A DNA stretch of 64,000 bases from Forficula auricularia (Eukaryota > Arthropoda > Insecta > Dermaptera > Forficulidae): assembly GCA_024734495.1 (NCBI GenBank), contig JALMQS010000816.1, positions 6,101,171 through 6,165,170 on the forward strand, given 5' to 3'. Positions 9,004 through 57,599 of this stretch are shown in pieces; position 1 is the stretch's first letter; each line of letters begins with the position of its first letter. The notes under the pieces were generated by a model that was not told the DNA's origin, made no database searches, and was given only the letters and a program-made list of their open reading frames with translations. Position numbers and translations under genes: made by a program.

Positions 9004-9060
9004 AATTTATAAAAATTCTCCTACTCTAGGCAAAAAGAAACTTTCAATTTAGATTTAAAT

Positions 9061-39544: not shown

Positions 39545-39795
39545 CTTATATCGAGATGATATATCTGTATATATATATATTATTTATTTGTTTGAGACTA
39601 TCATTTCGAAGACTTTTAATTCTAAGCTCACCACCAGTGAAGGAACATTAAATTTTCAATATCCATACGATATTGACTCCATGAAAAACAACATTTATAA
39701 TTAAAAAGGCTGATGATGAAGACAAAGTCTTCGAAATTATAGATTCAAACAAATAAATAATATATATATATACAGATATATCTTCTCGATATATA
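39545..39795. mobile_element. Palindromic element with hammerhead core
   Basis: Outer arms: 39547-39613 ('atctgtatatatatatatta', 'tttgtttgagactatcat', 'ttcgaagac') pair with 39721-39793 ('gtcttcgaaat', 'attcaaacaaataaata', 'atatatacagatatat'). The centre (39614-39709) is unique. The right arm carries a hammerhead core on the + strand; the left arm keeps only its 3' half on the minus strand. Confidence 0.75.
39710..39746 (+). ncRNA. Hammerhead-like ribozyme core
   Basis: CTGATGA (39710-39716), extra T, a perfect 6-bp stem II GAAGAC/GTCTTC with loop AAA (39718-39732), and GAAA (39733-39736). Compared with 57447-57439, the position that should be U16.1 is A here, so the cleavage triplet is broken. 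The inverted partner at 39591-39612 still has the intact 'GATAGTC'. Confidence 0.7.
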
Positions 39796-40591
39796 TGTGT
39801 GTATGTTTTTTGCATCAGGCAGAGGACCCTCTTTGTTTCTCTTTATGATTCAACAACTCTGCTTCTCTCGCCAGAACAAAAACTTTTCTATTATATAACT
39901 TATATACGATATATCGATATTTTTTATCAATTTGTTAATTAATTAATTTTGTTTGGATGTTTTGGTAAAAAACTTCCAAATTTATAATTTTGGAGGCATG
40001 ATTAATTGCTTATTTGTAACCTACGACTGCGAGAAACAATAAAGATCTATTATCTATTGGTTTAACTAGATACATCGAGCACAGAAAGACACAAAAAATG
40101 TGCCAGTGTTCCCAGATCGAATCTGAAAGAATCAGTAGAAAATCGTTAATTTTAGCAGTAGATAAACACAACAGATGACTTAATTAATAATTATTAATAA
40201 TGTTTCATGCGTTAAAAAATGTTAGATAGTAAAAAAATTCATATTGAAAATAAAAACTAACATTTACCTTAAAAAATGTTATATAAATTAAAAAAAAAAC
40301 TAAATTGGAGTAAAATAAAATGAAATATAATATAATCCAATTTATTATGATGAAGTGGATAATGCGGGAAATGAAAATGAAGAGGAGGACGATGATGAAG
40401 ATCAATTTATTATGATGAATTTTTTTAAATAATCAATACTTTAAAATTAAAAAAAGAAAAATCCGAAATATGATATGTCTATCGTTGATTTACAATGTCT
40501 GCTTTTAATTATTTAAATATTATTTAAATAATACTTTCTTAATGTGTTTACTTTTTGTATTATTATAAATAAAAATTATATTGTTCTAGTA

Positions 40592-40906
40592 CAGTGATGG
40601 CGAACCTATGACACCTGTGTCAATGGTGACACATTAAGCCATTTTGGGTTACAGGCATCGTTTTACGGTCTTTGGTCAAGAAGAGTCAGCAGAGGTTGGA
40701 TTTAATTAACTAAGTCATTAGTGTAAAGAATAATTTTGTTTTTGTTTTTAAATAAATAAATATATCAAAAATATGTTTGTTTTTTTTTTACTAGGTCTGC
40801 AACTATCACCAAATTATGAATATTTATAGATGTGACACGACACCCGAGTTAAGTCAGTTTTTTTCCAAATTTTGGCACACCAAACTCAAAAAGTTCGCCA
40901 TCACTG
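40592..40906. mobile_element. hAT MITE with perfect 8-bp duplication
   Basis: 315 bp. Starts CAGTGATGGCGAACCTATGA and ends AAAGTTCGCCATCACTG. It is flanked by TTCTAGTA at 40584-40591 and 40907-40914, an identical 8-bp target-site duplication as hAT transposases make. No transposase inside. The open frame spanning its right end is coincidental. Confidence 0.95.
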
Positions 40907-41109
40907 TTCTAGTATTGGGTTTTTTTTCGCCTACAATACATGACATAAATTTTTATTTTTTTGAGTTTAGAGTATCTAGTCGATTATTTAATAGTTGTGA
41001 TGTTGTGAAATAAAAAATTCGTATAAAATTGTGCAATTAAAAAATTGCAGTAGTTTTTGGTATTTGCAAGTGAAAAAAAATTCTGATATATTTTTCTATA
41101 TAAATATAA

Positions 41110-41196
41110 CGCAAGGCATATATCGATATTCGATATATATCAAAGGAGTATATCGATACTTATATATCGATATATTTAGGAAATATATCGATATAA
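41110..41196. repeat. ATATCGAT-rich simple repeat
   Basis: Irregular repeats of 'tatcgatat' up to the start of the next Helentron-like element; they resume as 'aatcgatatatcg' right after it (42011). The element may have inserted into a (TATCGA)-type microsatellite, or carry it. Similar sequence is at 39510-39560. Confidence 0.6.
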
Positions 41197-42012
41197 AATA
41201 AGCTGACGTGTTCTGATGTGGCCATCCACTTGACTTTACCATACAACCTGGCCCCTCACTTACATTAATATTTAATAAAATTATTTATAATCATGTAGGG
41301 GAGGGGGTTTAGTTTTTGCATTTTTAAACTCCTAGGGGCACACTGATTATGTATACAAAATTTGGTTGAGTTTGGTAAATGGCCAACATTTTCATTTTTT
41401 GACCCTCCCCCCATTTCGGTCGGTTAGTTTTTGCATTTTTAGACTTCTGGGGACCCACTGATTATGTATACAAAATTTGATTGAGTTTGGTAAATGGCCA
41501 AGATTTTCATTTTTGGACCCTCCCCCATTTTGGGCGGTTAGTTTTTGCATTTTTAGACTTCTAGGGGTCCACTGATTATGTATACAAAATTTGGTTGAAT
41601 TTGCTCAAACGACCTAGATTTTTAATTTTTAACCCCCCTCCACCCCCCTTAATTTTGGGTCGATATGCACCAAAATCTAATCAGCTCTTAATCTCAATGG
41701 ACCAAAACTACGTGTGAAATTTGGTTTCGATATTCACACTAGTTTTTGAGCTAGCTCGTCCACAAATTTGGTAACGCACAGACTAACTAACAGACATTTT
41801 GACAAAACAATTATTATCTCAAAAAATATAATTTTTTCGATGTTCACTTATTAGAACTTTTTTGTAGAGCGAAAAGCCATAGTTTCGCTCAATTTTTTTA
41901 ATCGAAATAGTTTAAGCTGTTTTTGAGATATTTTGGAAAAAAGAAGGAAAAAACACTTTTTTCATGCACGATTACAATACTTGACCATACTCTGTATGGT
42001 AAAGTAAAAATA
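41197..42012 (+). mobile_element. Helentron/DINE-like element (family A), copy 2
   Basis: The cleanest uninterrupted copy. 5' 'agctgacgtgttctgatgtg' with ACTTTACCATACA at 41235-41247. Three to four internal units of about 115-120 bp (each with 'ctgattatgtatacaaaatt') follow, then 'gactaactaacagacatttt'. The 3' hairpin CCATAC-tct-GTATGG is at 41984-41998, with outer pairs TACTT/AAGTA. No ORF. Confidence 0.75.
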
Positions 42013-43070
42013 ATCGATATATCGTTGCCATCCCTACTCTTGGATAAAGAAGAAAGAGGAAATGGCGGTTATTGTTTTTATTAGCATTTGCCGTGGAGTA
42101 TTCGTTCTTCTCACCATCAGCTCGTCCCTTTTGCAAAAGCATATTTCAGTATTTGCTAATCTTTTCTACTTGACTCAACTCGACATCCTTATTAAGGTCG
42201 ATCTTTTGCTTTTTGCCCAACAAGAATAGATAAATCTGGTTATAAACTTGAGAACAATTTAACAACAGCTAAATTATCCTGCGTATTGTGCAATGGCAAG
42301 CCAACCTGTCAAGAAAAGGAAACAATTGAAATGATCCGACTTAGTGAGTGGATAATAGTGAAAGAATCGGCCAATTTCATGGATGAGTTGAAAGCAAATT
42401 TGAATTTATGATTTGCCGATTCGAAAAGAGAAAAACAATTATTATTTCATTAAATTTATTACATTATAGTGTAGGAATTTTAGAATTTTAATTAACATTT
42501 TTTTATATAAATTATTAAATTCTCTATTCGGGTAAAAATGATTAATTATAACTGAAAAATTCATTAAACTTTAAAATTTTGGAACATTTGCTCTAAGTAT
42601 AATCCATTTTTGAATGTTGAAGTGTTCCCACGGTAATTTCTAAAAAAAAATCATTTTTCAAATGGAAATCTCAATTGCATGAAAAACGCTACGCCTTAGA
42701 GATAGTCAACCAAACATACATTTTATCTATTTTAGCCACTCACATTAAAGGCTGATTTGTAAATTTCCGGTTAAACTGCTTGATATATTTGACTGTCAGC
42801 TAAATTAACTAACTGTCATATAAGTATTCAACCACCAAATATACATCCGAAAATGGCCGCATTTTTACTTATTTTAACTCCATGGCAGAAGCGGCGGCAT
42901 TTCAACTTTTTCTAAAGTGGCGAAGGGGAAATAATTTTTAAATATTATGTAGATATTTAAAACTTTATATTGACAAAAATTTCAGATGTTTATTTTTGTG
43001 ATTTATTAACAATAACATTAATAAAAAGTAACTTAGACAAATCAACTTTTAAACGTTAGTTTTAAATATT
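42013..43070. other. No recognisable gene
   Basis: 42020-42420 is somewhat GC-richer ('ctcaccatcagctcgtccct', 'gaaagaatcggccaatttca') without a convincing ORF or splice sites; the rest is AT-rich. Confidence 0.4.
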
Positions 43071-43072
43071 TT

Positions 43073-43373
43073 CTTAAAGCAATTTGAACCGCGAAAGTTA
43101 AATAATGTTATCATTAATTTCTTATATTAATTCTACATTTAGAAAATTATTTTATTATTTTTTGAAAAGGGAAAATGAAATGAGCACCCGACAAGATTCG
43201 AACCCGTGTCTCTCTCCTTTAGCCGAAGGGCGTCTTACCGACTATGCCACGGATGATCCTGCCAGGAAAGGTGCTCTTTGGCTAAAAAAATAATAAAATA
43301 ATTTTCAAATGTAGAATTATCATAAGAAATTATTGATTACATTATTTAACTTTTACGGTTCAAATTGCTTTAA
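43073..43373. mobile_element. Hairpin element carrying a tRNA-like core
   Basis: Long TIRs: 'caatttgaaccgcgaaagtt' (43079-43098) with 'aacttttacggttcaaattg' (43349-43368), 'attctacatttagaaaatta' with its inverse. The core 43182-43276 is bounded by GAGCACC and GGTGCTC. Split parts of another copy are at 60263-60318 and 61528-61606. Confidence 0.75.
43182..43276 (-). pseudogene. tRNA-derived sequence within hairpin element
   Basis: On the minus strand: A box TGGCATAGTCGG (complement of 43238-43249) and B box GGTTCGAATCT (complement of about 43193-43203). A TCATCCG segment pairs with CGGGTGC as a 6-of-7 acceptor-like stem. The D stem and anticodon loop are poor and there is no standard T33, so it is not a working tRNA gene. 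Internal pol III promoter boxes are intact. Confidence 0.6.
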
Positions 43374-43495
43374 AAAGGTAACTTGGTTAAAGAAAAAAAA
43401 ATACTAATTTAGCTTAAAATTTTTTATTTTTAATTGAAGTTCAAAGAAATGTGCACCAAATAATTACAAATAACAAAAACTAATCAAAGTTGTAC

Positions 43496-43525
43496 GTTTC
43501 GTTGATCTATTTCGAACTTCATCAG
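43496..43525 (-). ncRNA. Hammerhead-like core
   Basis: Minus strand: CTGATGA (43525-43519), extra A, GTT/AAC stem II with 11-nt loop, GAAAC (43500-43496), then GTAC. ACGU could be a loopless stem III with GUA as triplet, but stem I does not pair. Core only. Confidence 0.45.
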
Positions 43526-43539
43526 AATCAATTTTTTTA

Positions 43540-43824
43540 CTTTACCATACGGAGTATCGTAAAGTATTATAATGGTGCCTGAAAATAGTCTGTTTTTACT
43601 TCTTATTTTCGAAATATCTCAAAAATAATAATAATTTTAATATTTTTATTTTTATTTATTTATTCGAGATTCTTTAGCCTACCCCTTGGGAAATAATTTT
43701 AATAAAAAATAACTTAGCTAATTCACCGTTGAGACCATGGGTTCCGTAGACTTTACCTGAGGGCCCTTTGAGACCGATTACAATACCAGTACTTTATATC
43801 TGCTTCGCATGGATAAAGTAAAAA
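43540..43824. mobile_element. Two Helentron-like 3' ends, convergent fragments
   Basis: 43540-43635 is a family-A 3' end read on the minus strand (ACGATAC-tcc-GTATGGT hairpin at about 43557-43573). 43730-43824 is a family-B 3' end on the + strand ('gagaccatgggttccgtag', then 'gcttcgcatggataaagtaa'). Both are 3' terminal stubs. Confidence 0.6.
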
Positions 43825-43900
43825 TTACTAACTGCTTACCTAATTGTTTAAATTATGATAACAAATTCAAAAAAATATTATTTTTGTGATGCATGAATTA

Positions 43901-44114
43901 ATGGAGTCAGGTTGGCCAAGTGGTTAAAGTGGATGGCTTTAATCAAGGTAGCGCGGGTTCAAGACCGACTCCGTGCAAATATTTGACTGGCTATAATCTG
44001 ATTCCTTCAGGGGAAGGCACTGGGAAACCACTCCAGGAAAATTACAATGGATAGGATACTCTCCATAGTAATCGCCGACGCTCGTAATCTAGTATGGTAC
44101 TTGAAGAAGAAGAA
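43901..44114 (+). mobile_element. tRNA-headed SINE with (GAA)n tail
   Basis: The head has A box TGGCCAAGTGG (43913-43923) and B box GGTTCAAGACC (43956-43966), 33 nt apart, with GGAGTC at the start complementary to GACTCC at 43966-43971. The body contains 'ctgggaaaccactccaggaa'. The tail is GAAGAAGAAGAA (44103-44114). The tail equals that of the RTE-type LINEs at 50140 and 50889, so RTE machinery probably mobilised it. Confidence 0.8.
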
Positions 44115-45175
44115 TATTGAATTAATAATTTACATATCTTCATCTTCAAGAAACTTATAAAATTACATTTCTCCAGGTGGGTTCGCTATTTTTATTCCTA
44201 TTTTATCAATATTTGATATTTTACTTACTAATTTAACGAATGAGATATAGCCAAGAAACCTGTTTTGTGTATGGGCAAGGGATCCCGGAGAGTATCAATT
44301 AACATAAAAATATCATTCATTCATTGTAATCTTAAAATAAAAGAATATTGTTTTCTACCATTATAAATACATTGACCTTTAAGAACTTTTTCATGAGATG
44401 AACGGACCGCTATCTCTCAAGAAAAAGTTGATGTCCCTTAGACAGAACTCTTTTCATTTATACTAAGTGATAAGAAAAGATTCGATTATTTTTTTATTAT
44501 TAATAGACAGCGACTTACATCTTTTAAGATTCCGACTGACATTATTTCTAATTACTTGTCAAATCATCCTTTTCTAACAAATCTCTTGGCCAACTTTTGT
44601 TCTTCCGGTTTCTTCTGTTTCAAAGTAATCGAGGACTTAGGGTCTTCATTTTCATATTTATTTCTTGTTTTCAGCAGCAGCCAGCCTATCAGTCTTTAAC
44701 AAGAGCTAGGGAAGTCATCTGGAAGCTTCCACATTAACATCTCCTCCATATGGATATATAATTCAAAGATCAGTAAGACCCTTTTTATTAATCAAATCAA
44801 CTGTAATAAGAGAAAAGTGTACAACCACAAAGACATAAGTCTAGTTTAAACATCGAGTTTAAAATTGTCCAAAATCAGTAGGGTGTCAAATAAACAATTA
44901 CACATGTAATCAAAAGTCAGAGTACAAAAAAAATAAAATCATATTATTATGACACTAAAAGCTAAATTTTCTAATAGATTTGATGAAATCTTTTTACTTT
45001 ATTTATTTCTCATGGCCTAAGTCTGATGATGAAGAAACATTAGAATTAATATGCTGTGTCCTATGGTATATAGCATGTAGATTTCATCAGTAACAGAATT
45101 ATGGACCTATCTTCGAAATGTAAAGCTACCTAAGAGTTGGAGAATAAGCTGAATCCATAAACTAACCAAAAATAG
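44115..45175. other. No recognisable gene
   Basis: AT-rich; 44560-44760 is slightly GC-richer. CTGATGATGAAGAAAC at 45021 looks like a hammerhead core but has no room for stem II (see rejected list). Confidence 0.4.
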
Positions 45176-45177
45176 GT

Positions 45178-45437
45178 TAAAGTAAAGAAAATTTTGAAAA
45201 TTTTTAGAAACTTTTTAAAATTTTAAATATAATAAACTAGGTAGGTTTCAAAAAATACAACTCACGCTAGTGTCCTTTGGGAACTCCTGAAGATGGGCTT
45301 ATACCCCGAAATATATATAGAGTCGTGCTAAACAAGCATCTGATCTTTTATTTTTGTGAAACCTACTCGTACCTAGTATTTTATATTTTAAATTTTAAAA
45401 AGTTTCTAAAATTTTTCAAAATTTTCTTTACTTTATT
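45178..45437. mobile_element. Palindromic element with hammerhead (GTAGGTTTCA family)
   Basis: Left arm 45178-45254 ('agaaactttttaaaatttta', 'actaggtaggtttca') pairs with right arm 45351-45437 ('tgaaacctactcgtacctag', 'aaaaagtttctaaaattttt'). The middle holds a + strand hammerhead. A second, left-truncated copy is at 49015-49215. Confidence 0.8.
45282..45330 (+). ncRNA. Hammerhead ribozyme candidate (CUGAAGA core)
   Basis: Stem I 5' strand ACTC (45283-45286), CTGAAGA (45287-45293; position 7 is free in the consensus), extra T, stem II GGG/CCC (45295-45297 with 45305-45307), GAAA (45308-45311), AUAUAUAU as stem III (45311-45318), A17, then GAGT (45320-45323) completing a 4-bp stem I. The cleavage triplet would be AUA. 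A downstream TGCT-aaaca-AGCA hairpin could provide loop contacts. Confidence 0.6.
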
Positions 45438-46437
45438 TAAAATGTTTCACCAAGAACCCACACCATTCTCCCTTAACAAAACCAAAATAGGTTGTTCAAA
45501 GTTATACCACAGGATACTCTTACAAGGTTTTGTGATATTCACCTATTACAGTTATTAAAGTATTAATCGTCAACAAAAAGATAGGTAGTTAAGAGAATGT
45601 TCAAAATAATTAAATTCAGTTCACATTATTAGAGAGAACTGACTTGACAAAATATTGAAACAAATAGAAAACTGACGGAAGATGTAGCAATCACAAATCA
45701 AAATAGTGGTACGAAAGATTGAAACAACCCAGAACTCATGGGAGAAACTAATCTTTTGTCAAATGAAGATAAAAAAGGGCTTAAGTAGGGGTATGTATAT
45801 GATAAAGCGATATATTTTGGGCCTGTGATACTTTTTATTTTGTACCTTTTATCTGTGTACTATATGTACCTACATTGTAAATTAGACCAAGAGCCAGGAC
45901 GATTTAACCCATTAAAATCTGAGACACATTGTTATGAATCCAAGTACTAGTACAAAATTCTTAAGTATCGCATTTTAACAGATACAGGCTCATATGGGAG
46001 TAACGGGAGAATTCCCGGTAGGCCCGTCTAATCATCATCCATTTGTCAAAAGTCGAATTAATTCGTTTTCCCCTTAACTTTTTCTGACCCAGACCAACTC
46101 TCGTAAATTTTATATGTTGTCAATTTATTATGGTAGATATCAGAGAAGTATTAAAATTTCATTTACTCGTGTGTATTTTACAAAGATTTATTCCAATAAC
46201 CAGAAAACTATCGTATATAAAATATTTATTAAAAGGAATTTTTTTAATCTATGTGTATTTTAGTTCGAGCTTACATTTATTAAGATAGATTTAGTTTTAA
46301 TAGCAAGAGGAATCGAAAACAAACTCCGACTTGTTTGATCAAATTGGAATAGATTTTTCTATCGGATACTTATAAGAGTTCCCTTTTAACTATTAAGTGT
46401 TTCTACAATAACTATATATTACAATTATTTATTCCAG

Positions 46438-46580
46438 GTCCAAGGTCCACATCCTATGCTTCCTTGGGCACTTGCCACTACGGGTGAGAGCCCCAGCAAC
46501 CCAAAAGCGACACTCTCCAGCAAGGATTCGCTCCAGTCAGCACGTTCCAGAGATAGTGCTCTCACCCACACGTCTTCCAG
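46438..46580 (+). CDS. Internal exon of unidentified gene
   Basis: 143 nt, about 57% GC, between acceptor 'caattatttattccag' and donor CTTCCAG/gttaga. The first frame is open: VQGPHPMLPWALATTGESPS then NPKATLSSKDSLQSARSRDS, ser/thr-rich and low-complexity, as in linkers of large scaffold or channel proteins. The second frame is also open; the third has a TGA. The length is 3n+2. The best host-gene evidence in the window. No homologue was recognised. Confidence 0.7.
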
Positions 46581-46755
46581 GTTAGATTTTTAGTATTTTA
46601 TTAAATATTAAATAGAAATTCAGAAATAAGGAGGACATTATGATTCAATAATCTTTCCTAATTTTGTATCAAAAATTTGTTTTAATTAGATGTGACAAAT
46701 CAGAGGAAAAAAGGAACAAATAAATACCGTGTTAAAACATGCGATCAATTTTAAC

Positions 46756-46784
46756 GTTTCGCCAATTTATTGTGGCTTCATCAG
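46756..46784 (-). ncRNA. Hammerhead-like core in Penelope pLTR
   Basis: Minus strand CTGATGA (46784-46778), extra A, GCC/GGC stem II with 10-nt loop, GAAAC (46760-46756), then GTTAAAATTG. Stem I pairing is not evident. Penelope-like elements are known to carry hammerheads in their terminal repeats. Confidence 0.55.
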
Positions 46785-47372
46785 GCTCTATACAAAAAAT
46801 AAATACAAATGAATCATTCACAATCATCAAAATCAACCCAGACATAATATAATATAATTTCCTTGGTCAAATTTATAAAACACTTCGTCATTTTTTTTCT
46901 TACTAATTATAATTTTCTGGTAGTTACTCAATGTAACTTCAATGTATTCTAATTTATCGCTAAGTTGTTTTATTTTCCAACATGTAATTTTTATTTTTAA
47001 ATTTAAGACAGATTTCTTAAATTTGTTGGCCAAACTATCAACCTTCTTAGCAAACGGATGTTCTTCTATCTGAAGCACAATACAAGCATTTGAAGTTATT
47101 GATAATGTGGTTAGGGGTCAATCCATTTCTTTTGCACTCCAATAAAAATATTCCTCTATTTTTGTTGTTGGCATATTGTGTTGAAATAGTTGTCCAATTC
47201 TTGACTAATTCTTTGCATTCATTCCCATATGTAACTTGTAAGTTATTAAAGAATCCCCCCGTTAACATATTATTATTGTTATTCAGTTCCATTATCAAAA
47301 TTTGATGTGATAGATCAGAATAAAAAAAAGGAACAATTAAATACCTTGTCAAAACATGCGATCAATTGCAAC

Positions 47373-47400
47373 GTTTAGAAATTTACTGTGGATTCATCAG
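47373..47400 (-). ncRNA. Decayed hammerhead-like core in Penelope pLTR
   Basis: Same repeat as 46756-46784. CTGATGA is intact (47400-47394), but GGCGAAAC has become TTCTAAAC, so the catalytic GAAA and stem II are lost. Confidence 0.5.
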
Positions 47401-47405
47401 GCTCT

Positions 47406-47475
47406 ATACAAAAAATAGTTTTCCTCTGATTTGTCACATCTAATTCTGATAATGGAACTGAATAACAATAATGAT
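47406..47475 (+). mobile_element. Inverted Penelope-like 5' fragment
   Basis: 'cctctgatttgtcacatcta' followed by 'ataatggaactgaataacaa' is the same start region as in the minus-strand element, here on the + strand and abutting it head to head. Inverted partial terminal repeats are common in Penelope insertions. Confidence 0.6.
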
Positions 47476-47579
47476 ATCTGTTTTAATATTATATTAAAAG
47501 TATTAATCTCAAAAATTCACAAATTTAATATAAACGTTTTTTATAAATATAATAATTAGAATGAAAATTAATAATAGAG

Positions 47580-47720
47580 GTCTTTAATTTTACCTGGGTC
47601 GTTAACCGCAACGTGGACACTAAAACCTTGGCCGAACTCGCGGCTTACGAAATGAGCGCGAGACCAGAGAAAAGGTTAAACCTTCATCCTTCGCGTCAAA
47701 TTCATTTAACCAAAGCGACT
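47580..47720. other. GC-richer patch
   Basis: 'gtcgttaaccgcaacgtgga' and 'gagcgcgagaccagag' are not repeated elsewhere in the window and have no ORF or splice pair that I trust. Confidence 0.25.
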
Positions 47721-47993: not shown

Positions 47994-48759
47994 CCCGTAT
48001 AGCACAGAGACCAAAATAAAACCCAAATGCAACTTTTTTGATTGGTTGAATTATAGTCTTTATATAGTTTTAATTAGGTTGAATTACGGTTTCTAAACGG
48101 TAGTTATGTCTCGTTTTTTTCCGTTTGCAACTGTTGTATTAACGTTAAATTATAGTCGCAAAGATTATAATGAAACCGTTCCAAACATGTAGTCGCCAAC
48201 ATTTTGCAACTGTTTATTTATAATTAAATATTTCTTTGATTTGATTAATAAAATGAATCATTACACAATTCTTTAATAAAAAACAATAATCAACATTATA
48301 TATTATATATATAGTACCTGGCCACCAAGCGATGCTTGGTAACTTTTTGCTTCAAGTTAAAAGTTATTAATATAGTACAAGCCCCCTGGACCCCCCCCCA
48401 CGAACCCCGCACTCACACCCCGCCCGCCACCTATATATATATATAATGTTGTTTATTGCTTTTTATTAAAGAATTGTGCAATTATTCATTATATTAATCA
48501 AATCAAAGAAATATTTAATTATAAATAAACAGTTGCAAATCCGTGCCAAAAATGTTGGCGACAACCTGTTTGAAACGGTTGCATTATAATCTTTGTGACT
48601 ATAATTTAACATTAATACAACAGTTGCAAACGGAAAAAACGAGACATAACTACCGTTTAGAAACCGTAATTCAACCTAATTAAAACTATATAAAGACTAT
48701 AATTCAACCAATCAAAAAAGTTGCATTTGGGTTTTATTTTGGTCTCTGTCCTATACGGG
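47994..48759. mobile_element. TIR element CCCGTATAG with long inverted arms
   Basis: Left arm 47994-48305 and right arm 48432-48759 are inverted copies ('agagaccaaaataaaaccca' with 'tgggttttattttggtctct'; 'gaaccgtt' regions; 'aacagttgca' regions). It inserted into the start of the Penelope-like element whose remainder lies at 48765-49012. The centre carries a short Helentron-like fragment. Confidence 0.8.
48313..48431 (+). mobile_element. Helentron/DINE-like 5' fragment with C-rich tract
   Basis: 'agtacctggccaccaagcga' with a perfect 7-bp hairpin ACCAAGC/GCTTGGT, loop GAT (48324-48340). This is followed by a C-rich, G-poor segment (48382-48430), as at 60321-60506. It sits in the middle of the CCCGTATAG element. 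Confidence 0.6.
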
Positions 48760-48764
48760 CTATT

Positions 48765-49012
48765 GTTCAGTTCCATTATCAGTTTTAGATGTAACAAATC
48801 AGAGGAAAAAAGGAAACAATTAAACACCGTGTTAAATAATACAATGCAACGTTTCGCCAATTTATTGTGGCTTCATCAGGCTCTATACAAAAAATAAATA
48901 CAAATTAATCACTCACAATCATTAAATACAACCCAGACATAATATAATATAATTACCTTGAGCAAATTTTTAAAACACTTCGTCATTCAATTTTTTTCTT
49001 GCTAATTAGAAT
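48765..49012 (-). mobile_element. Penelope-like element remnant, copy 2
   Basis: The minus-strand order matches the first remnant: ORF piece ('taaaacacttcgtcat' region, 48970-48985), junction 'aattatattatattatgtct', pLTR with hammerhead core, then 'cctctgatttgttacatct' and MELNN start. The deletion junction between ORF piece and pLTR is the same as in 46686-47405. A start-region piece is followed by the TIR element insertion. Confidence 0.65.
48851..48879 (-). ncRNA. Hammerhead-like core, possible full fold
   Basis: Minus strand CTGATGA (48879-48873), extra A, GCC/GGC, GAAAC (48855-48851), then GUU. ACGU is a self-complementary minimal stem III; GUU would be the cleavage triplet. TTGTATAGAGC upstream pairs with GCATTGTATTA downstream at 9 of 11 positions, counting G-U, with one A-A and one U-U mismatch. 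The pairing is not conserved in the sister copies, so it may be chance. Confidence 0.5.
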
Positions 49013-49014
49013 AT

Positions 49015-49215
49015 GTAATTAACTAGGTAGGCTTCACAAGGAAACTCCTCTGTGAATTCCTGAAGATGGGCATAAGCCTCGAAATACCATATATATAGAG
49101 TCGTGCTAAACAAGCATCTTATCTTTTATTTTTGTGAAACCTACCTAGTATTTTATATATATTTTAAATTTTGAAAAGTTTCTTACATTTTTCAACATTT
49201 TCTTTATTTTATAAA
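49015..49215. mobile_element. GTAGGTTTCA-family element with hammerhead, copy 2
   Basis: The right side ('gagtcgtgctaaacaagcat', 'gtgaaacctacctagtattt') matches 45320-45437. The left arm is cut to 'actaggtaggcttcac' next to the Penelope-like remnant. Confidence 0.75.
49056..49103 (+). ncRNA. Hammerhead ribozyme candidate, copy 2
   Basis: Stem I 5' strand ATTC, CTGAAGA (49060-49066), extra T, stem II GGG/CTC with one G-U, GAAA (49081-49084), an AT stem III region lengthened by 'acc', then GAGT. Compared with 45283, the stem I C-to-U change keeps pairing through a U-G wobble. Confidence 0.55.
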
Positions 49216-49458
49216 ATAAACAACACGAATTCATCCCTCCTAAAAATATTTTCTCCCGTAAGAATAAATAATTTTACTTCCCCGTTAAGTAGCGACTTTA
49301 GCTGTTCTTGGTGATTTCCGCCAATAGAACTCTTGATTTGCAGATAGTGAACTGAAATTTGACTTAAAAGTTTATATTTATAAACTACATCTTACTGTCA
49401 AGTTTTTCTAATTTACTCAGATTCTCTCTTACAAAAATTTTTTCCAGCTAACTGATTC

Positions 49459-50152
49459 TTGAAAATAGACATTTGCTTCAATTTAAATTATTCAACTTTA
49501 ATATGGCAAAACAGATATATGTCAGCGGAGAGCAAAGTTCGCATTTATAAGACAAGCGTGCACCCAGTGTTGACATATGCTGCAGATACAATTTCCACCC
49601 ACCAACTTCTCCGAACAACCGAGAAGAGGATAATTAGAACCATACAGGGGAAAACACTAAGGGCCGGTTGCATGTCGCAAAGTAAATGCTTTTTACCACT
49701 AACCAAAGTAGATGGTAAATGGAGTGACTGGGATGGCCAATCAGATGACAGGCACTGAAAGTTTTCCTGTCATCTGATTGGCCATCCCAGCACCTCCATT
49801 TACCATCTACCTTGGTTAGTGGTAAAAGCATTTACTTTGCGACATGCAACCGGCCCTAAGAGATAGAGTCTGCAGCGAACATTTAAGGCAGATAAGCGGC
49901 ATACCAGACATAGTAGATTGGGCCGGTAGTAGAAAAAGAGAATGGGCAGCCCACGTAGATCGTATGGGAGAGGACAGATTGGCAAAAGTATCAAAAGAAT
50001 GTCGTGCCCAAGGTGTAAGAAGCCTAGGAAGGCTAAACAAAAAGATAGAAAGAGGGCCTAAATGTACACCCTGAGTAAAAATCGAATGGAACAACGTCCT
50101 TTAATTGGAGAAACAGAGGCAGGCCTATTGAGAAGTTTAAGAAGAAGAATTT
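49459..50152 (+). mobile_element. RTE-like LINE 3' fragment split by a MITE
   Basis: Before the MITE: MSAESKVRIYKTSVHPVLTY, then TTEKRIIRTIQGKTLR (49520-49660). After it: DRVCSEHLRQISGIPDIVDW and RKREWAAHVDRMGEDRLAKV (49861-50000). Both are the RT C-terminal region of RTE-type elements. The 3' end is 'aagaagaagaat' at 50140-50151. Frame is kept across the MITE site apart from the insertion itself. Confidence 0.8.
49661..49856. mobile_element. Harbinger-like MITE, TIR GGGCCGGTTG, copy 2
   Basis: 196 bp, flanked by TAA (49658-49660 and 49857-49859). Ends GGGCCGGTTGCATGTCGC and its exact inverse. The arms pair over about 85 bp. It sits inside the RTE reading frame; removing it and one TAA restores continuity of the surrounding sequence, which proves the duplication. 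Confidence 0.95.
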
Positions 50153-50270
50153 TAATTGACAGGAGCCAGATCGTTAGGTTTTAGATAACAAGCGAAGCTA
50201 ATTGAAAATTAAAAGAGATTCCTTAATTCTCAAAAATTATAGAACATAAAATTGTTTTAAATTTCTTATT

Positions 50271-51493
50271 ATTACTTTACCATACAGGGTATGGTCAAGT
50301 ATTGGAATCGTGCATGAAAAAAGTGGTTTTTCCTTATTTTTTTCGAAATATCTCAAAAACGGCTGAAAATATTTTGATTAAAAAAATTGACCGAATTCAT
50401 GGCATTTCGCTCTACAAAAAGGCCCTAATAAGTGAACATCGAAAAAATTATATTTTTCGAGATAATATTTGTTTTGTCAAAATGTCTGTTAGTTAGTTAG
50501 TTGGTCTGTGCGTTACCAAATTTTTGTGGACGAGCTAGCTCAAAAACTAGTGTGAATATAGAAACCAAATTTCAAACGTAGTTTTGGTCCATTGAGATTA
50601 TGATCTGATTAGATTTTGGTACATATCAACTCAAAATTAAGGGGGGTGGAGGGGGGTTAAAAATTAAAAATTTAGGCAAACTCAACCAAATTTTGTACAC
50701 ATAATCAGTGGGCCCACAGTAATCTAAAAATACAAAAACTAACCGCCCAAAATGGGTGTGGAGGGGGGTATGTAGGTTCAAAAAATGAAAATATAGCCTC
50801 TTGTACCAAACTCAACCAAATTTTGTATACATAATCAGGACCCAGGTGTCTAAAAATGCAAAAACTAACCCCCCCCCCAACCCACCCCTTTTTCTTCTTA
50901 AGGTGCCGATCCGTGACAAATGTTGGCTATCATCATGGCAATCCTCACTTTATCAACAGCAATACGGAAGAGTTGTTGGGAGGTCTTGTTGAACCAGGTC
51001 CTGAGGTTCTTCAACCACGATATCCTTCTTCTTCAGGGACCTCTTTTTCCGAAAATCTTCCCCTGTAGAATAGATTGAAGCAAAGTATACCGGGTTTCGT
51101 TCCTCATAATATGACCGAGGTACTGCAATTTTCGGGCCTTGATGTCATCCACCACTTCGAGGTCCTACTTCATTCTTTCCAGAACTTCGGCATTAGTCAT
51201 TCGTGCTGTCCAGGGAATTTTAAGGATTCTTCGATACAGCCACATCTCGAACGCGTTTATCCTCTTAATAATGGCCTCGTTCAAGGTCCAAGACTCTACA
51301 CCATACAAGAGGACAGAGAAGACATAACAACGCAGAAGTCTTGTTTTTAAATCAAGAGAGATATTGTGGCTCTTGAACCCCACCCCTACATGATTATAAA
51401 TAATTTTATTAAATATTAAATATAAGTGAGGGGCCAGGTTGTATGGTAAAGTCAAGTGGATGGCCACATCAGAACACGTCAGCTTATTTTTAC
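50271..51493 (-). mobile_element. Helentron/DINE-like element (family A), copy 3
   Basis: Minus-strand copy. The 3' hairpin is at 50275-50303 (ACCATAC/GTATGGT complement), the internal 'gattatgtatacaaaatttg' units at about 50680-50840, and the 5' end 'ctgacgtgttctgatgtggc' complement at 51455-51484. An RTE fragment occupies 50889-51376. Confidence 0.75.
50889..51376 (-). mobile_element. RTE-like LINE 3' fragment nested in Helentron-like element
   Basis: Minus strand encodes RCYVFSVLLYGVESWTLNEA and FEMWLYRRILKIPWTARMTN, then ARKLQYLGHIMRNETRYTLL and later MMIANICHGSAP-stop. These are hallmark RTE C-terminal motifs. The tail is 'aagaagaagaaa'. Frame is nearly intact but 5'-truncated. The insertion splits a unit of the host element. 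Confidence 0.85.
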
Positions 51494-51519
51494 TATGTGT
51501 AAAAATAAGATCACTGTGA

Positions 51520-52055
51520 ATTGGCTTTCGCCACTTTCCTCCTAATTCTAATCTTCTCCCCTTCTGATGATTTCATATCTTTATTTAAGAGGCAGGTGAT
51601 GATGTATCTTTTTCCATTCATCACATTTGCCTAGAATGCATCCTTGTGTCTGATGTACATGACCAATCGTTCATCACCATCATCGTCTGGCTGAGCTGTT
51701 CGTTTTCTCGACTAATCCGTGAGTTTTCCTTCTCCCTCGTTTCGAGTGACAGGTGCTCAACGTTCAACGTTCAACGTTCAACCTTGACAGCAGAGAAGCC
51801 GCGGATTACAAAACGCCTCCCCTCACCCCTCACCCCTTACCCCACAAAGCTTCGCCAATCTCACTCATCTTGCTGCTTGCTCCTCATTCAAATATATCAC
51901 TTTCAGCCACACCCTTCTAACAGTTTCTACATGATAAGTACTCCTATTATTCCATAAGTCATACTAACAATTAAATAAGAATAATTTTTAGAAAAAAAAA
52001 CTGCAACGGATCGTTGCTAAACTTTATATCTATCTTATATCTTTATATTTATAAC
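51520..52055 (+). other. Unique pyrimidine-rich region with AACGTT repeats
   Basis: Not repeated in the window. 51530-51960 is C/T-rich on the + strand and contains three copies of CAACGTT in tandem (51758-51780). Open frames here (51646-51957) are low-complexity. It could be host regulatory or 5' UTR sequence. Confidence 0.35.
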
Positions 52056-52059
52056 TATC

Positions 52060-52588
52060 TTATTCTAGGGTAAAGTACTTTAAAATATAATTTTACAAAA
52101 AAAAACCTTTATTGGTGGTCCTCGCGGTACTTAATTACAATATTAAATTTCATCAAAATTGGTTTAGTCATTTTCAAAATATTTAGAAAAAAACTAAAAA
52201 ACTATTGAAATAAAGTACTAATGTTTGTGGGCCGATATGTACCAAAAACTAATCAGCGGTTCATTTTGTTTAAATAATGGTAGGTTTTCAATTTCATTTC
52301 AATCGGTTGTACGGTGTGGAAAAAATCGTGGACGAAAAAAACGATAACATCCATCCATCCGCACGCACTTCCTGAAAAAATCGCACTTTTTGGCCTGTGG
52401 ACGAGACCCCATGTAATTTTTAGCAAAACCGTCACGTGCTAAAATTCAACCTAAATGAATACTACAATTTGGGACTTTAATTGAGACCATGGGTTCCGTA
52501 GTCTTTACCTGAGGACCCTTTGAAGTCGCGCTTGAGACAAGACCGATTACAATACTTTACCCATGCTTCGCATTGGATAAAGTAAAAT
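52060..52588 (+). mobile_element. Helentron/DINE-like element (family B), shorter copy
   Basis: Matches 5840-6333 from 'aattaaatttcatcaaaatt' to the end, including 'ccgcacgcacttcctgaaaa', 'gagaccatgggttccgtagt' and the 3' hairpin at 52552-52583. The 5' boundary is approximate. It abuts the next palindrome directly. Confidence 0.7.
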
Positions 52589-52589
52589 A

Positions 52590-53012
52590 CCGACTTCAAA
52601 AAATTAAATGCAACAAATAAAATAATAAGAACTCAAAAAATAAAATAAAATTCACTAAAAGGTATAAAATAATTATCTAATTTATTTACATCTAAACGAT
52701 GAAATTGTTACATGAAATCACTTTTTGAAGTCGGTGTCAAACATACATTTTATGAATCGCACTCGACGAATCTTACTTAGTACCTATGTTTGGCGAGTAA
52801 TGAAGACAACATCGCGTAAGCTCTATTATGTAGTTTGTTTGACACCGACTTCAAAAAGTGATTTGATGTAACAATTTCATCGTTTAGTTGTAACTAAATA
52901 AGATACCTAATTATTTTATACCTTTTAGTGCATTTTATTTTATTTTTAAGTTCTTATTATTTTATTTGTTGCATTTAATTTTTTTGAAGTCGGTTTTTTA
53001 TTTTATTTTCTA
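52590..53012. mobile_element. Palindromic MITE, TIR ACCGACTTCAAAAAATTAAA
   Basis: Left arm 52588-52735 and right arm 52850-53004 are inverted copies. The inner sequence repeats the terminal motif (GAAGTCGGTGTCAAAC with GTTTGACACCGACTTC), so the element has nested inverted ends. ACCGACTTCAAAAAA-type ends are widespread in insect genomes. Confidence 0.85.
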
Positions 53013-53139
53013 AAAATTATTTTTGTTTTTCTCTTTTTAGTGATCTTAAGAATAGTGACTTATAATAATACCTTATTGCTCTCGTAAGAGAAAGATTCTT
53101 CGATTATTTCGATTATTTGAACATAAGAATTGGAGATGT

Positions 53140-53465
53140 CTCCTTATTTTGTCATTGATCATATCATCAAGAACTTGACCAAATTAATAATCATCAAGGT
53201 ATCCCCTTTCCAATAAAAAAAGAATCATCGAAATCGGTGCATAAACAAGGAAGTTATGTCTTTATATGTGAACAAACATAACATAAAAAGGTCCGATACT
53301 AATGAAATTTATACGGGATCAATCGGCAACTATACTGAAGCCAATGCAAAAAAATCATCGAAATCGGTCCACATGGTAAAGAAATCGATGCACAAACACG
53401 CAAAAAAAAAATACATTCCGTTGAATTGATAAATTCCTCCTTTTTTTTTGAAGTCGGTTAAAAAG
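53140..53465. mobile_element. Related GAAGTCGGTT-ended fragment
   Basis: Ends 'ctcctttttttttgaagtcggtt' near 53439-53459 and contains three 'aatcatcgaaatcggt' phrases (53223, 53354 and nearby). One-ended relic of the same or a sister family. Confidence 0.6.
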
Positions 53466-53508
53466 TGAAGAAATTAATTTTTTCCTCCAAAAATGTAATA
53501 GATATGAT

Positions 53509-54444
53509 GAGGCATTCCACGCCAAATCAGATGGTTTGAAAAAATTCAATTTTTGATTTACTTCAATTTTTGACTTTTTTAGGACCCATCAAAAAACTCT
53601 TCCTCTTCCTGGTAAATTTTGAATTTTTTTTGATCACCGGTTTAAAAGATATCGAATTTCCGTTTTTCGCTCATAATTTCTTCAAAAATGGTCCAAATTT
53701 AATTTTTTTTTTTTTTTTTTTTTAATTTTTGTTTAAAAAAATACAAAACAATTATTTAAAGTGTTTTTATATGCAATTTTTCAGTTTGAAAATTTTAATC
53801 TTGTTTTTGAAAATGTATGTACATTTCGATTTTTTTGATAATTTTTTTATTTTAAACTTCTATTCATTCTACACATTTGAAGACCAGGTTGATAGTTGTC
53901 GTATTATAATGACTATTTTTTTCGATTTTGATTTTTTTCACCAAACGAGAATACAAATTATTTATTTTAAACACCTGTTAACTATAAAAATAAATTCAAA
54001 ATAACTAAAAAAGAGAACTCAATACCAAAAAGTGGTTTTAATAATGGTTAATAAAGAATAAAATTTTTCGAAATTTTAAAAATAAAAAAAAAATAGTAAT
54101 ATCATAGGACCACTATCAACCCGGTCTTAAAATTTGTAGAATGAATAGAAGTTTAAAATAAAAAATCGAAGAGTAGGTTTACATACAGTTTCAAAAACAA
54201 GATTAAAAAATCGCATATAGAAACACTTTAAATAATTGTTTTGTATTTTTTTCTAAAAAGTATGTAAAAAAAAAATGGACCATTTTGGAAGATGTGCGAA
54301 ATACAGAAGTTTGATATCTTTTGATCAAAAAAATTTCAAAATTTACCAGGAACAGTTTTTTGACGGGTACCAAAAAATGTCAAAAAATGAAGGAAATCTA
54401 AAATTAAAATTTTTTAAAACGTCCGATTTGGCGTGGAATGTCTC
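53509..54444. mobile_element. 936-bp foldback, TIR GAGRCATTCCACGCCAAATC
   Basis: Left end GAGGCATTCCACGCCAAATC, right end GATTTGGCGTGGAATGTCTC. Arms pair as far as 'gaccaggttgatagttgtcg' (53881) with 'ccactatcaacccggtct' (54112). The spacer of about 170 bp and arms are A/T-rich. No transposase; the open frames at 53729 and 54275 are by-products of the arms. Confidence 0.85.
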
Positions 54445-54821
54445 GTATATAAAATAAAATATTTTAATTTTACTTTATTTGAATCGCTGATTGCAGAAAG
54501 GGTCAACTCACTGAACTGAAGCTTTGAGAAAAACGCAAAAAACTGTTTTTTGGGACATGTGAAATATAATTGAAGAAACATTTAATGCGCAAATCAAAAA
54601 TATATTAATATATTGAAACAGAATTTTTTTTAATAGTAATCAAACTATTTGCTTTAATCACTTAAGTCTTAGTGTCTTTCAACGTTGACAAACATATATC
54701 TATAATTTTTAAGAGTTCTGTGACGGTTCAAGGTGGAACATTTTTAATAATAATAAAGTAAGTAGCATTTCAAGGTTGGTTTCACAAAAAAATAAAACAA
54801 TTACCTATATGTTTAGAGTTT

Positions 54822-54877
54822 TTATCTCTTAATATATATATTTCAGGTTTTAATCCTATCATCAGGAGTTAATATAC
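54822..54877 (-). ncRNA. Hammerhead ribozyme candidate, cleavage site altered
   Basis: Minus strand: TTAACTC, CTGATGA (54865-54859), extra T, stem II AGG/CCT with 7-nt loop, GAAA (54844-54841), an (AU)n stem III, then 'TAA' and GAGATAA (54828-54822). Stem I pairs at 6 of 7 positions. Two extra nucleotides at the cleavage position, compared with the + strand copy, probably inactivate it. Confidence 0.65.
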
Positions 54878-54889
54878 ATATTTTCTATG

Positions 54890-54938
54890 TTAACTCCTGA
54901 TGATGCGCTCAAAACCCGAAATATATATATCGAGATAA
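54890..54938 (+). ncRNA. Type I hammerhead ribozyme candidate
   Basis: Stem I TTAACTC (54890-54896) pairs with GAGATAA (54932-54938), six of seven positions. CTGATGA at 54897-54903, extra T, stem II GCG/CCC with one mismatch (54905-54917), GAAA at 54918-54921, self-complementary AUAUAUAUAU stem III (54921-54930), C17 at 54931 (triplet AUC). All universally required core bases are present; the stem II mismatch and the extra T are the weak points. Confidence 0.75.
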
Positions 54939-55019
54939 AAACTCTAAAAATATATTTGTTTTATTTTTTGTGAAACCAACCTTGAAATTCTATTTTCTTT
55001 TTTATTATATATCTATATA

Positions 55020-56090
55020 ATCATGACTTAGATCCTTTCTGCATTTACTTGAATTTGAACCAGAAATTCTGGAACAGTTCTCCGCTTTGGGAATACAAAA
55101 ATTTGGGCACCAGAAGGGAAACTTTTTATGACTTTCTATTCTTAAATTATCGCCGAAATCAGAATATAGACAAACACAGCAGGCACAACAATATAAAAAA
55201 TGGTTGAAAATGATTTTTTCCCACGTTTTAAAATATGAAAAGTAAAAAGAAATTCGAGTGAATTCAATACTCAACAAGAGTGGCGGACGTAAAGAGTAAT
55301 TTCATTCAAATGCAAACTCCAAATTAAATTTATAAACTTATACAATGAAAAAAGTCCTATAAATAAATGTTGTCAAAAAAGATGAAGGATTTTTCCCGTA
55401 GCGACTTGTCAATCTGAAGATTGCGGAAGCTCTTAAGAGATTAAATTATGCAACCTGTAACCATTGTACGATGATAAAGGAACTACACGCATTCCTTTTG
55501 CTCAAGTATAGTAGAAACTTTATTGTCCAGTATAGAAATTTACATAAAATGAATGGGACGAGCAGGTTGGGCTTTATCTAACAAGAAAATATAAACGAAA
55601 TCCCATGGGATTGCCTCTCATCTAGCGGGACAGCAGACAAAATATTTTCAGTGATATATGATCTTCACTAAAAGATATTTATTTTGTATCAATCTTTATC
55701 TTGATTAATTAATTAAATGAAATCTAAGGTTAGGGGATGTCTGAATTAACTATTATAAATAATCTCCTGAGTGTATTCTAGAACTTTCAACTATACGTAA
55801 TTTAAATAAACATTTTATTAATTTTTCATAAATTCAGTATTTTATGTAGTATAATAAGCTGATTCAATGAAAGAACTACAAATTGAAAATATTTAGTTTG
55901 ACGAGAGTATGAGAGTTGTTGATTCTTAAGGTGAAATCAATGTGATTTAGCATCAAACAGAAGACACTCATTAAAGAAGCTACTATAAATGATTGTCATA
56001 ACAATAGATATTTAAATTTTATAAATTAAAGGGTTTTTTAGTAACATAAAATAAATAAATAAACTAACTTAACTGACTATTATATATATA
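55020..56090. other. No recognisable gene
   Basis: AT-rich. The open frame on the minus strand at 55005-55277 (a few Cys, no motif) and 55370-55640, slightly GC-richer, gave nothing I recognise. Confidence 0.4.
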
Positions 56091-56094
56091 ATTA

Positions 56095-56236
56095 TTATAT
56101 AGCAAAGTAGCTGTATAATTTTAGGTTATATAACATTTATGTTTTGTTGCTGTTTTATAAGTGCTCCATAACGCTTATACAACATCAATACAACATAACA
56201 GTTGTATAACCTAAAATTATACAGCTATTTATAGTA
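56095..56236. repeat. Inverted-repeat MITE-like element
   Basis: 'agctgtataattttaggtta' (56109-56128) pairs with 'gtataacctaaaattatacagct' (56203-56225); arms of about 55 nt and a 30-nt loop. Termini unclear. Confidence 0.75.
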
Positions 56237-56636
56237 GGGTTTATTATGTGGTCGATTTACAAAACAGTTTCGGTCACCCCTAGTTGACCATTTTCAGTAG
56301 TAAATTTCGTTCAAGATTTGGAATTTGTCAATCTGCATAAACAACTCATTCTTAATTTATTAACATGGCTATTTCAATAATTTATGAACACTTGTCATTG
56401 ATTAGAATTTATTCTGAACTCAAAGGAAGAAAGAAGAATTCTAGAATATTAAAATAATTTTAATTCATACTCCGTTCATAGATTTTATCAGGATCAAAAT
56501 AAATATAGCCAAATTCTATTTGATTTTTGATTTTTTATATATATGTGATTATGATTATGTGTGCGTGTTAGAGTGGTTTTTATTTTAGAAGTATGTGGAA
56601 ATCAACGGGACAACCCGGAAACTTGTTCATATAAAT

Positions 56637-56952
56637 AAAAAACTAATAATTGTAGAATTTAAGTCATATCGAAAATCGCGTAACCGAGCCCTAGCCCTCT
56701 AAAGTTTGAAAAAGTAGTTTTTTTCATTTTGGTCCACCCTAATATTAAACAGCCTCAAATTATATATTATTTCGATAGAGGACGTTAATACGGAGTCCAA
56801 AACATGCTTATTTATTGAAATCGGACTAGAATTGATTTTAATATTAGGGTGGACCAAAATGAAAAAAAACCTACTTTTTCAAACTTTAGAGAGCTGGGGC
56901 TCGATTACGCGATGTTCGATATAGCTCAAAATTTACAGTTATTAGTTTTTTT
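56637..56952. mobile_element. Inverted-repeat MITE, AAAAACTAATAA ends
   Basis: Left arm 56637-56746 and right arm 56838-56952. Landmarks are 'attttggtccaccctaatat' with 'atattagggtggaccaaaat' and 'tcgcgtaaccgagccc' with 'gggctcgattacgcga'. The spacer of about 90 bp is unique. Confidence 0.85.
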
Positions 56953-56959
56953 GTATCCC

Positions 56960-57376
56960 TTACCAGTACTTGCAATTACCTCAGAAAATACCCCAATCTG
57001 AGCTTTCTCTTTTCTTTCAAAATTTCTCCTCTAAAATATCTCCTAGCAATCAATTCTCTTTGTCTTAAGGAGTACCCTATCAATTAGGCTCTTTTTATCT
57101 TCAGATTCTTCTTCAGTGCACTATTTTCTATATTTTTTTCCAGAACTTCCTCATTTGCAACTCTAACATATTCACTAATTTAATCTTTAACACTTCTGTA
57201 GCACCACATTCTAGGTCTCCAGTATTTGGCAAGAATCCTATTAATACACTGTTATTGTATTGTATGTTTTCAACAATATTAAATAGTTTATTTTATTGAG
57301 ATCTTTTTTTATTTAACAAGATACAATATTATTAAATTGAAAGTTTTTGCCGAGAAGTAGCAGAATTTTTATATAT
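56960..57376. other. No recognisable gene
   Basis: Pyrimidine-rich + strand (56970-57240) without ORF; remainder AT-rich. Confidence 0.4.
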
Positions 57377-57429
57377 TGAAGGAGACAATAAAAGAGTGTG
57401 TCTTCTGCTGGAATTATAAATTTATTTAT

Positions 57430-57483
57430 TTATAACGAGACTATAGTTTCGAGGGCTTTGCCCTCTTCATCAGTCTATTACAA
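57430..57483 (-). ncRNA. Type I hammerhead ribozyme, best candidate
   Basis: Minus strand: CTGATGA (57473-57467), extra A, perfect 6-bp stem II GAGGGC/GCCCTC with loop AAA (57465-57451), GAAA (57450-57447), stem III ACU-AU-AGU, C17 at 57439 (triplet GUC, the most common in nature). Stem I: A-U and G-C, a bulged A, then UUGUAAU with GUUAUAA, seven pairs including two G-U. The CUAUAG stem III is self-complementary, so a dimer could form it better, as described for minimal retroelement hammerheads. Confidence 0.8.
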
Positions 57484-57501
57484 TGTATTCACTGTAATAG
57501 A

Positions 57502-57540
57502 CTGATGAAGAACAAATTTTTTGCAATTATGAGTCTCGTT
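57502..57540 (+). ncRNA. Decayed hammerhead, partner arm
   Basis: CTGATGA (57502-57508) is intact, but stem II is destroyed and GAAA has become GCAA (57523-57526). 'GAGTCTCG' downstream still matches the cleavage-site region of the partner arm. Confidence 0.55.
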
Positions 57541-57599
57541 ATAAATAAATAAAATTTATAGTTCCAGCAGAAGAACACACTCTTTTATTGTCTCCTTCT

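Follow-up and report, generated by a model that had tools for sequence, protein, structure and literature searches.

The 64,000-nucleotide stretch of the Forficula auricularia genome analyzed here (contig JALMQS010000816.1, positions 6,101,171 to 6,165,170 of the forward strand; "the window", whose own numbering is used throughout) carries hammerhead-ribozyme motifs distributed over several small elements, many of them palindromic. Comparison of the window with itself placed these motifs and elements into three families, A, B and C, which are probably the remains of three families of Penelope-like retroelements (Penelope-like elements, PLEs). Such elements are bounded by pseudo-long terminal repeats (pseudo-LTRs, pLTRs), and most of the insertions described below lack an open reading frame (ORF).

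Element families

Family A comprises the palindromes at 39547-39793 and 57364-57613, together with a ribozyme-less relative near 8877-9082.

57335-57598, minus strand: A2, a head-to-head pair of pseudo-LTR-like arms of 264 bp, delimited by self-comparison and a 13-bp duplication (TACAATATTATTA)
57322-57334, no strand: left 13-bp target-site duplication of A2, from flank comparison
57599-57611, no strand: right 13-bp target-site duplication of A2, from flank comparison
57447-57473, minus strand: hammerhead core of A2, with helix II of 6 bp, helix III of 3 bp, and stem I of 2 bp, a 1-nt bulge and a paired stretch
57502-57530, plus strand: decayed hammerhead without its GAAA, in the other arm of A2, from the pattern scan and arm comparison
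8903-9049, plus strand: A3, 147 bp, with the outer ends of A2 and the hammerhead-bearing centre gone; tail of 46 nt
39547-39793, plus strand: A1, a palindrome related to A2, with a core at 39710-39736 (plus) and, by eye, a helix II of 6 bp

The tailed arm of A2 ends at 57335 and the untailed arm at 57598, the tail being 43 nt long. A3 is flanked by a 13-bp duplication (TAGATTTAAATTT) at 8890-8902 and 9050-9062, and despite its missing centre it has both outer ends in common with A2 (GAAGGA... and ...CTTTCAATT). No stem I was found in A1; its flanks have only AT-rich words of 7-9 bp in common, and no duplication was accepted there. By eye, A3 is also flanked by two direct copies of a transfer RNA (tRNA)-like repeat of the short interspersed nuclear element (SINE) type, at 8509-8690 and 9078-9240; ARAGORN found no tRNA in the window.

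Family B was located by self-comparison at 45178-45435, 49004-49217 and 54747-55008.

45179-45483, plus strand: B1, with a direct, tailed arm carrying a hammerhead and an inverted arm without one; tail of 49 nt
45287-45311, plus strand: hammerhead core of B1, with stem I of 4 bp, a 2x4 internal loop and 5 bp, helix II GGG/CCC, and an AUG overlapping A9
49004-49217, plus strand: B2, a relative of B1 (77% over 235 columns), with its core at 49060-49084
54705-55006, minus strand: B3, a near-symmetric head-to-head pair with cores at 54841-54865 (minus) and 54897-54921 (plus), both failing the structured descriptor defined below

B1 is flanked by a 10-bp duplication (AAAATAGGTT) at 45169-45178 and 45484-45493; its tail figures assume this length, and with a longer, imperfect duplication the tail would be a few bases shorter. 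In B3, the tailed arm ends at 54705, with a tail of 47 nt, and an 11-bp duplication (ATATATCTATA) lies at 54694-54704 and 55007-55017. B2 showed no palindrome of its own in the self-comparison, and no duplication was found around it.

Family C consists of repeats at 46684-46801, 47299-47417, 48785-49012 and 6438-6499. One further core is listed with it for convenience.

46687-47478, minus strand: element C, flanked by a 9-bp duplication (TGTTTTAAT) at 46678-46686 and 47479-47487
47050-47292, minus strand: start of the open frame of element C (MELNNNNN...), beginning with an ATG and open for 81 codons, followed by a frame break, from the ORF scan
48785-49012, minus strand: C3, another copy of the C repeat (87% to copy C1 over 233 columns), with its core at 48852-48879
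6444-6472, minus strand: C4, a core within a 62-nt relative of C3, with stem I of 3 bp, an internal loop and 6 bp, helix II of 3 bp, and a palindromic ACGU at helix III
43497-43525, minus strand: an isolated, doubtful core with no family placement, its stem I containing G-U pairs and its helix III of 1 bp

Read along the minus strand, element C begins with an inverted, tailed stub (47419-47478, tail of 36 nt), followed by a direct repeat (47299-47417) with a decayed core (47373-, GAAA lost), the ORF start, and a second direct repeat with its core at 46757-46784. The ORF start presumably bears a broad resemblance to PLE N-termini. A large foldback element at 47994-48759, with 126-nt arms that are 99% complementary and further inverted blocks, nearly abuts the end of C3 with its right end.

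A preliminary description of the window had placed most of the motifs in inverted-repeat elements or Penelope-like remnants. Palindromes were indeed recovered at 39547-39793, 45178-45435, 47267-47477, 54747-55008 and 57364-57613, while for five cores (49060+, 46757-, 48852-, 6444- and 43497-) the self-comparison gave no palindrome spanning the core.

Occurrence and structure of the hammerhead motifs

The exact core pattern CTGANGA...GAAA, scanned as CTGANGAN{4,34}GAAA over the whole window, gave 17 matches compared with 4.35 ± 2.22 (maximum 10) across 100 dinucleotide shuffles. Ten of the twelve cores listed beforehand carry this pattern (6444-, 39710+, 43497-, 45287+, 46757-, 48852-, 49060+, 54841-, 54897+ and 57447-), and the two others, 47373- and 57502+, have lost the GAAA. 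The remaining seven matches (6853+, 8434-, 21551-, 26670-, 43510-, 45023+ and 63612+), among which 43510- has the same core start as 43497-, are treated as chance; none of them yields an extra locus under the structured descriptor.

This structured descriptor, made of the core, helix II, the U-H cleavage site and stem I, was fitted by six loci in the 64 kb: 6444-, 43497-, 45287+, 48852-, 49060+ and 57447-. In 100 shuffles, the count of such loci averaged 0.19 and never exceeded 2, and when 192 core words (the true core and its permutations) were run under the same descriptor, the true core ranked first with 6 and the runner-up had 3. An earlier, stricter descriptor had returned 3 loci (shuffle mean 0.17, maximum 1, 60 shuffles), namely 49060+ and the off-list matches 6853+ and 63612+; it missed most sites because an unpaired base before helix II and a split stem I were disallowed. 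The hammerhead motifs are real, and their preliminary description is largely borne out; a chance origin is rejected by the shuffles and the permuted cores.

The assignment of the motifs to type I-like hammerheads made in the preliminary description is borne out at the six structured loci, which have the conserved core, three helices and an open helix I, five of the six lying in families A, B or C. Its broader statement that spacing and pairing fit hammerheads holds for half of the twelve listed positions, which keep all the helices asked for, and not for the other six; 39710+, 46757-, 54841- and 54897+ have the core yet fail the structured descriptor. By eye, stem I is shifted in 54841-, and helix II of 54897+ contains a C-C mismatch. 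The stretch 54890-54938, which had been put forward for cleavage assays in vitro, thus includes this mismatch and does not fit the structured descriptor.

Across the six fitted loci, helix III measures 1-3 bp, and an unpaired base separates A9 from helix II in every case; in 49060+ this base lies opposite a second unpaired one. A viroid hammerhead with an additional core nucleotide is known from the title of a reference given in PMC6155905. A type III reading of 57447- through the central palindrome was set aside, since only about 3 bp of helix III could be drawn by eye.

Conservation of the core among copies had been proposed as a check, and within the window it was found in family B: 10 of 10 core bases are identical in each of five row comparisons, whereas the other columns are 48-69% identical. 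Five of the six possible comparisons were counted, the B1-B2 pair being left aside. This conservation may be taken as support for past selection, short of proof because the rows are few and two of them are arms of one insertion.

Folding predictions varied among the elements. In the RNA of the whole A2 element, the predicted pair probability of stem I is 0.0 and the CUGAUGA lies inside the central hairpin; for a single arm, the value is about 0.7 for the five outer pairs of stem I and still 0.0 for the two core-adjacent ones. The A2 palindrome transcript is therefore predicted to mask its own ribozyme. The C4 arm has predicted stem I pair probabilities of 0.34-0.97. For B1, values of 0.0-0.001 were obtained both for the element and for the single arm, which would tell against a readily formed B1 ribozyme. 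These predictions are only indicative, since the hammerhead core is not modelled by them. The CTGANGA core lies upstream of its own cleavage point, so arms that retain it were evidently copied from RNA still intact at that ribozyme.

Insertion boundaries

Flanking duplications were accepted for A2 (13 bp), A3 (13 bp), B1 (10 bp), B3 (11 bp) and C (9 bp). The search tried ten intervals and accepted the first four of these; C was accepted later, when the whole 46687-47478 insert was chosen. Words shared by the flanks, of 9 bp at A1, 9 bp at C1 and 12 bp at 43497 (TTTTTATTTTTA), were not accepted, being AT-rich or lying away from the element ends. In nine other palindromes, words of at least 7 bp near the ends were seen in one only, I13 (11 bp, not abutting the ends), and two further inverted pairs had words of 8 bp; the windows of this check were narrower than in the main duplication search, so that it is not a matched control.

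Each of the five duplication-flanked inserts has one tailed and one untailed arm, the tail measuring 43 nt in A2, 46 nt in A3, 49 nt in B1, 47 nt in B3 and 36 nt in C. The untailed end precedes an ATG by 7 nt in B1, 10 nt in B3 and 9 nt in C, and the distance from the tail end to the A of that ATG is 42, 37 and 27 nt, respectively, the ATG lying within the tail in all three. The outer ends are nearly constant and the inner junctions variable, a combination that suggests, as far as it can be read from the sequence, priming from both ends of a target break and not copying of a ready-made palindrome. The proposal that these elements multiply as ready-made palindromes consequently fits less well than repeated insertion of PLE ends.

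Comparison with known systems

In Adineta vaga (PMC3846280), a Penelope ORF is flanked by two pLTRs, next to which lies an inverted one; one of the inverted pLTRs optionally bears a tail, target duplications measure 8-10 bp, and junction palindromes are attributed to self-priming. The elements described there, Pen2a of A. vaga and other Penelope elements, have in common with the window the inverted pLTR beside direct pLTRs, the junction palindrome, the one-sided tail and the short duplications. They differ in that the A and B inserts of the window have no visible ORF and in that duplications here extend up to 13 bp. Hammerheads, usually minimal, occur in all available PLE sequences according to PMC6155905.

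Among the published features of PLEs, direct pLTRs around an ORF together with an inverted pLTR were found in family C only, A2, A3, B1 and B3 having the inverted pair alone. A minimal hammerhead is present in the pLTR, all five inserts have on one arm the tail (36-49 nt here) that is optional in PLEs, where it measures 30-40 bp and lies near the ORF start, and a short duplication at an AT-rich target accompanies A2, A3, B1, B3 and C (9-13 bp). Dimeric PLE hammerheads were reportedly described by Lunse et al. in 2017.

A further parallel is offered by PAc, the Poseidon element of Anolis carolinensis (PMC11167929), whose protein cuts and extends both strands and prefers AT-rich DNA. Its reverse transcription begins internally near the ORF start, the tail corresponding to the stretch between two start sites; its ORF starts at hammerhead helix II, and ribozyme mutants still insert. 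Cleavage by the PAc hammerhead was seen only when protein was present. Unprocessed RNA is likewise indicated as the substrate by the PAc data. The window resembles PAc in the AUG at hammerhead helix II (A1, B1, B2 and B3R, one of the two B3 arms), the tail beside the ORF start and the AT-rich target, and differs in its head-to-head arms and in that no protein was found in it. The sequence CTGAWG-ATG, as in PAc, is present in these same four and absent from the other B3 arm (B3L), A2 and C.

Interpretation and alternatives

The motifs would thus sit in worn, mostly ORF-less insertions of PLE terminal repeats arranged head-to-head, a reading to which we assign a probability of about 80%. PLE-like machinery had already been named as the likely mover, and the anatomy of pLTRs, tails and duplications matches published PLEs. 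Assignment to the PLEs (most of all for A and B), the enzyme and the two-end priming are inferred from the sequence; the membership of C would follow from its layout.

In the putative mechanism, a minimal type I hammerhead lies close to the start of the pLTR, and the PLE enzyme would cut an AT-rich target on both strands. Reverse transcription would begin at either of two neighbouring sites within the element RNA, in the vicinity of the ORF start; complementary DNA from both break ends would run back through the pLTR, and the two would be joined head-to-head. Joining would leave two arms, a duplication of 9-13 bp and a tail on one arm only.

Several results weigh against this reading. Rfam found no hammerhead in the window at gathering scores, nor any over the window at E ≤ 10; the scan, which had been recommended in the preliminary description, gave on four short stretches a single sub-threshold match to Hammerhead_1 (57432-57476, 12.4 bits against 34). 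The structured descriptor was relaxed after the sites had been inspected, the identical version then being run on shuffles and permuted cores. No reverse transcriptase (RT) or GIY-YIG domain was detected, as none of 59 scanned frame fragments matched any Pfam family at E ≤ 0.01; these were drawn from 143 window fragments of at least 60 aa, mainly near the ribozyme region and at 6-9 kb, and decayed pieces of PLE protein could escape such a scan. For the C frame, searches gave no Pfam family above cut-off, no solved structure (best E 0.45) and no database homologue; the remainder of this ORF was not found, and the AUG embedded in the hammerhead of B1, B2 and B3R opens just 10-12 codons, unlike in PAc.

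The boundaries add to these points. Around B2, C2 and C3, the duplication search gave nothing, and the A2 and A3 tails have no ATG. In size-matched random window pairs (1500 draws per element), duplications of at least 13 bp arose at rates of 1.5% for A2 and 1.7% for A3, those of at least 10 bp at 13.8% for B1 and those of at least 11 bp at 5.2% for B3. For the 9-bp duplication of C there is no separate null; matches of 9 bp arise in 15-31% at the other sizes. The B and C duplications are weak alone; it is the joint pattern that carries the argument. Finally, in PMC11167929 the start sites on top and bottom strands were no different, which does not favour a strict rule of one site per strand.

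Among the other explanations, the best placed, although unlikely, is that the palindromes are independent SINE-like units multiplying as ready-made, two-armed, ORF-less ribozyme carriers with PLE enzymes acting in trans. Such units would account for the two outer ends common to A2 and A3, for the 77% likeness of B1 and B2 and for the lack of a visible ORF in A and B. They would not be expected to show varying inner junctions, with one core and the remnant of another in A2 and none in A3, or inverted arms without hammerhead in B1 and in the C stub beside the near-equal arms of B3, and an ORF start is present in C.

Considerably less probable are DNA transposons of the foldback type or miniature inverted-repeat transposable elements (MITEs) containing hammerhead-like sequence by chance. 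Long terminal inverted repeats would suit them, as would the many other palindromes of the window, where 86 inverted pairs of 40 nt or more were counted, but a duplication length varying between 9 and 13 bp, a tail on one arm only and direct repeats around an ORF start in C would not.

Highly improbable here are metazoan retrozymes, in which short tandem repeats bearing type I hammerheads move via circular RNA. In PMC7229834, they are short, A+T-rich and non-coding with a type I-like ribozyme, and their unit size (about 170-400 nt) and low G+C are similar to those of the window elements; they differ in being direct tandem repeats, whereas the arms of A2, A3, B1 and B3 are inverted and the direct repeats of C surround an ORF start. 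The minimal helix III, as reported for PLEs, and the tail anatomy also speak against them. The idea that the cores are chance matches in AT-rich palindromes is equally improbable: the negative Rfam result, the 7 of 17 unsupported matches, the weak 43497- and the tuning of the descriptor would agree with it, yet no shuffle reached six loci, permuted cores gave three at most, and the core is kept between diverged B copies.

The layout of PLE terminal-repeat insertions is already published, and most likely no new class of ribozyme carrier is represented here. Since their structural features have been described for PLEs, the carriers were filed with known PLEs. The preliminary suggestion of several undescribed families of two-armed carriers is accordingly not upheld, head-to-head inverted pseudo-LTRs with junction palindrome, tail and 8-10 bp duplications being published for Penelope in PMC3846280. 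None of the titles and abstract openings in the literature searched, a body that most subscription papers lie outside, treats short palindromic hammerhead carriers without ORFs as a separate class.

Other features of the window

No ORF was seen in the A or B inserts. Two ribozyme patterns and one arm pattern had no match in viral contigs, one pattern had none in genome contigs, and 54700-55100 had none among phage records. A viral protein match (L001, residues 1-21 of 104 at 57%) was judged irrelevant. High-E Rfam matches over the palindromes, mostly to microRNA families and all under the gathering score, are regarded as a non-specific effect of near-perfect hairpins.

Palindromic MITE-like elements with similar termini (GGGCCG-TTG-ATGTCGCA) occupy 49674-49861 and 34846-35010; the former draws sub-threshold microRNA matches and, as judged by eye, breaks up an RT-like reading frame. 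Two blocks of direct repeats, with a period of 52 bp, lie at 3840-4593. A three-copy repeat family with internal units of about 115 bp lies at 10434-11565, 41265-42013 and 50266-50676, one copy being inverted. The stretches 25714-27071 and 32361-33715 are two complex blocks in which related repeats, about 66-90% alike, occur in direct and inverted orientation.

Implications for PLE insertion

Since all five duplicated inserts have one tailed and one untailed arm, it is tentatively proposed that paired target-primed reverse transcription is recorded in PLE palindromes, each end of a break having been primed from a different one of the two start sites. The observed pairing would have a probability of 1 in 32 under equal, independent sorting. 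We regard this proposal as doubtful at present; if true, mixed-site priming would replace self-priming as the origin of head-to-head pLTRs, and it predicts the same asymmetry genome-wide.

The Rfam results suggest that its hammerhead models miss PLE-type ribozymes, so that an Rfam-negative region need not lack them. Short two-ended PLE insertions record how a poorly understood class of retroelements inserts, and their outer ends, junctions and one-sided tails make the start-site result of PMC11167929 testable against self-priming (PMC3846280) by counting in PLE-rich genomes.

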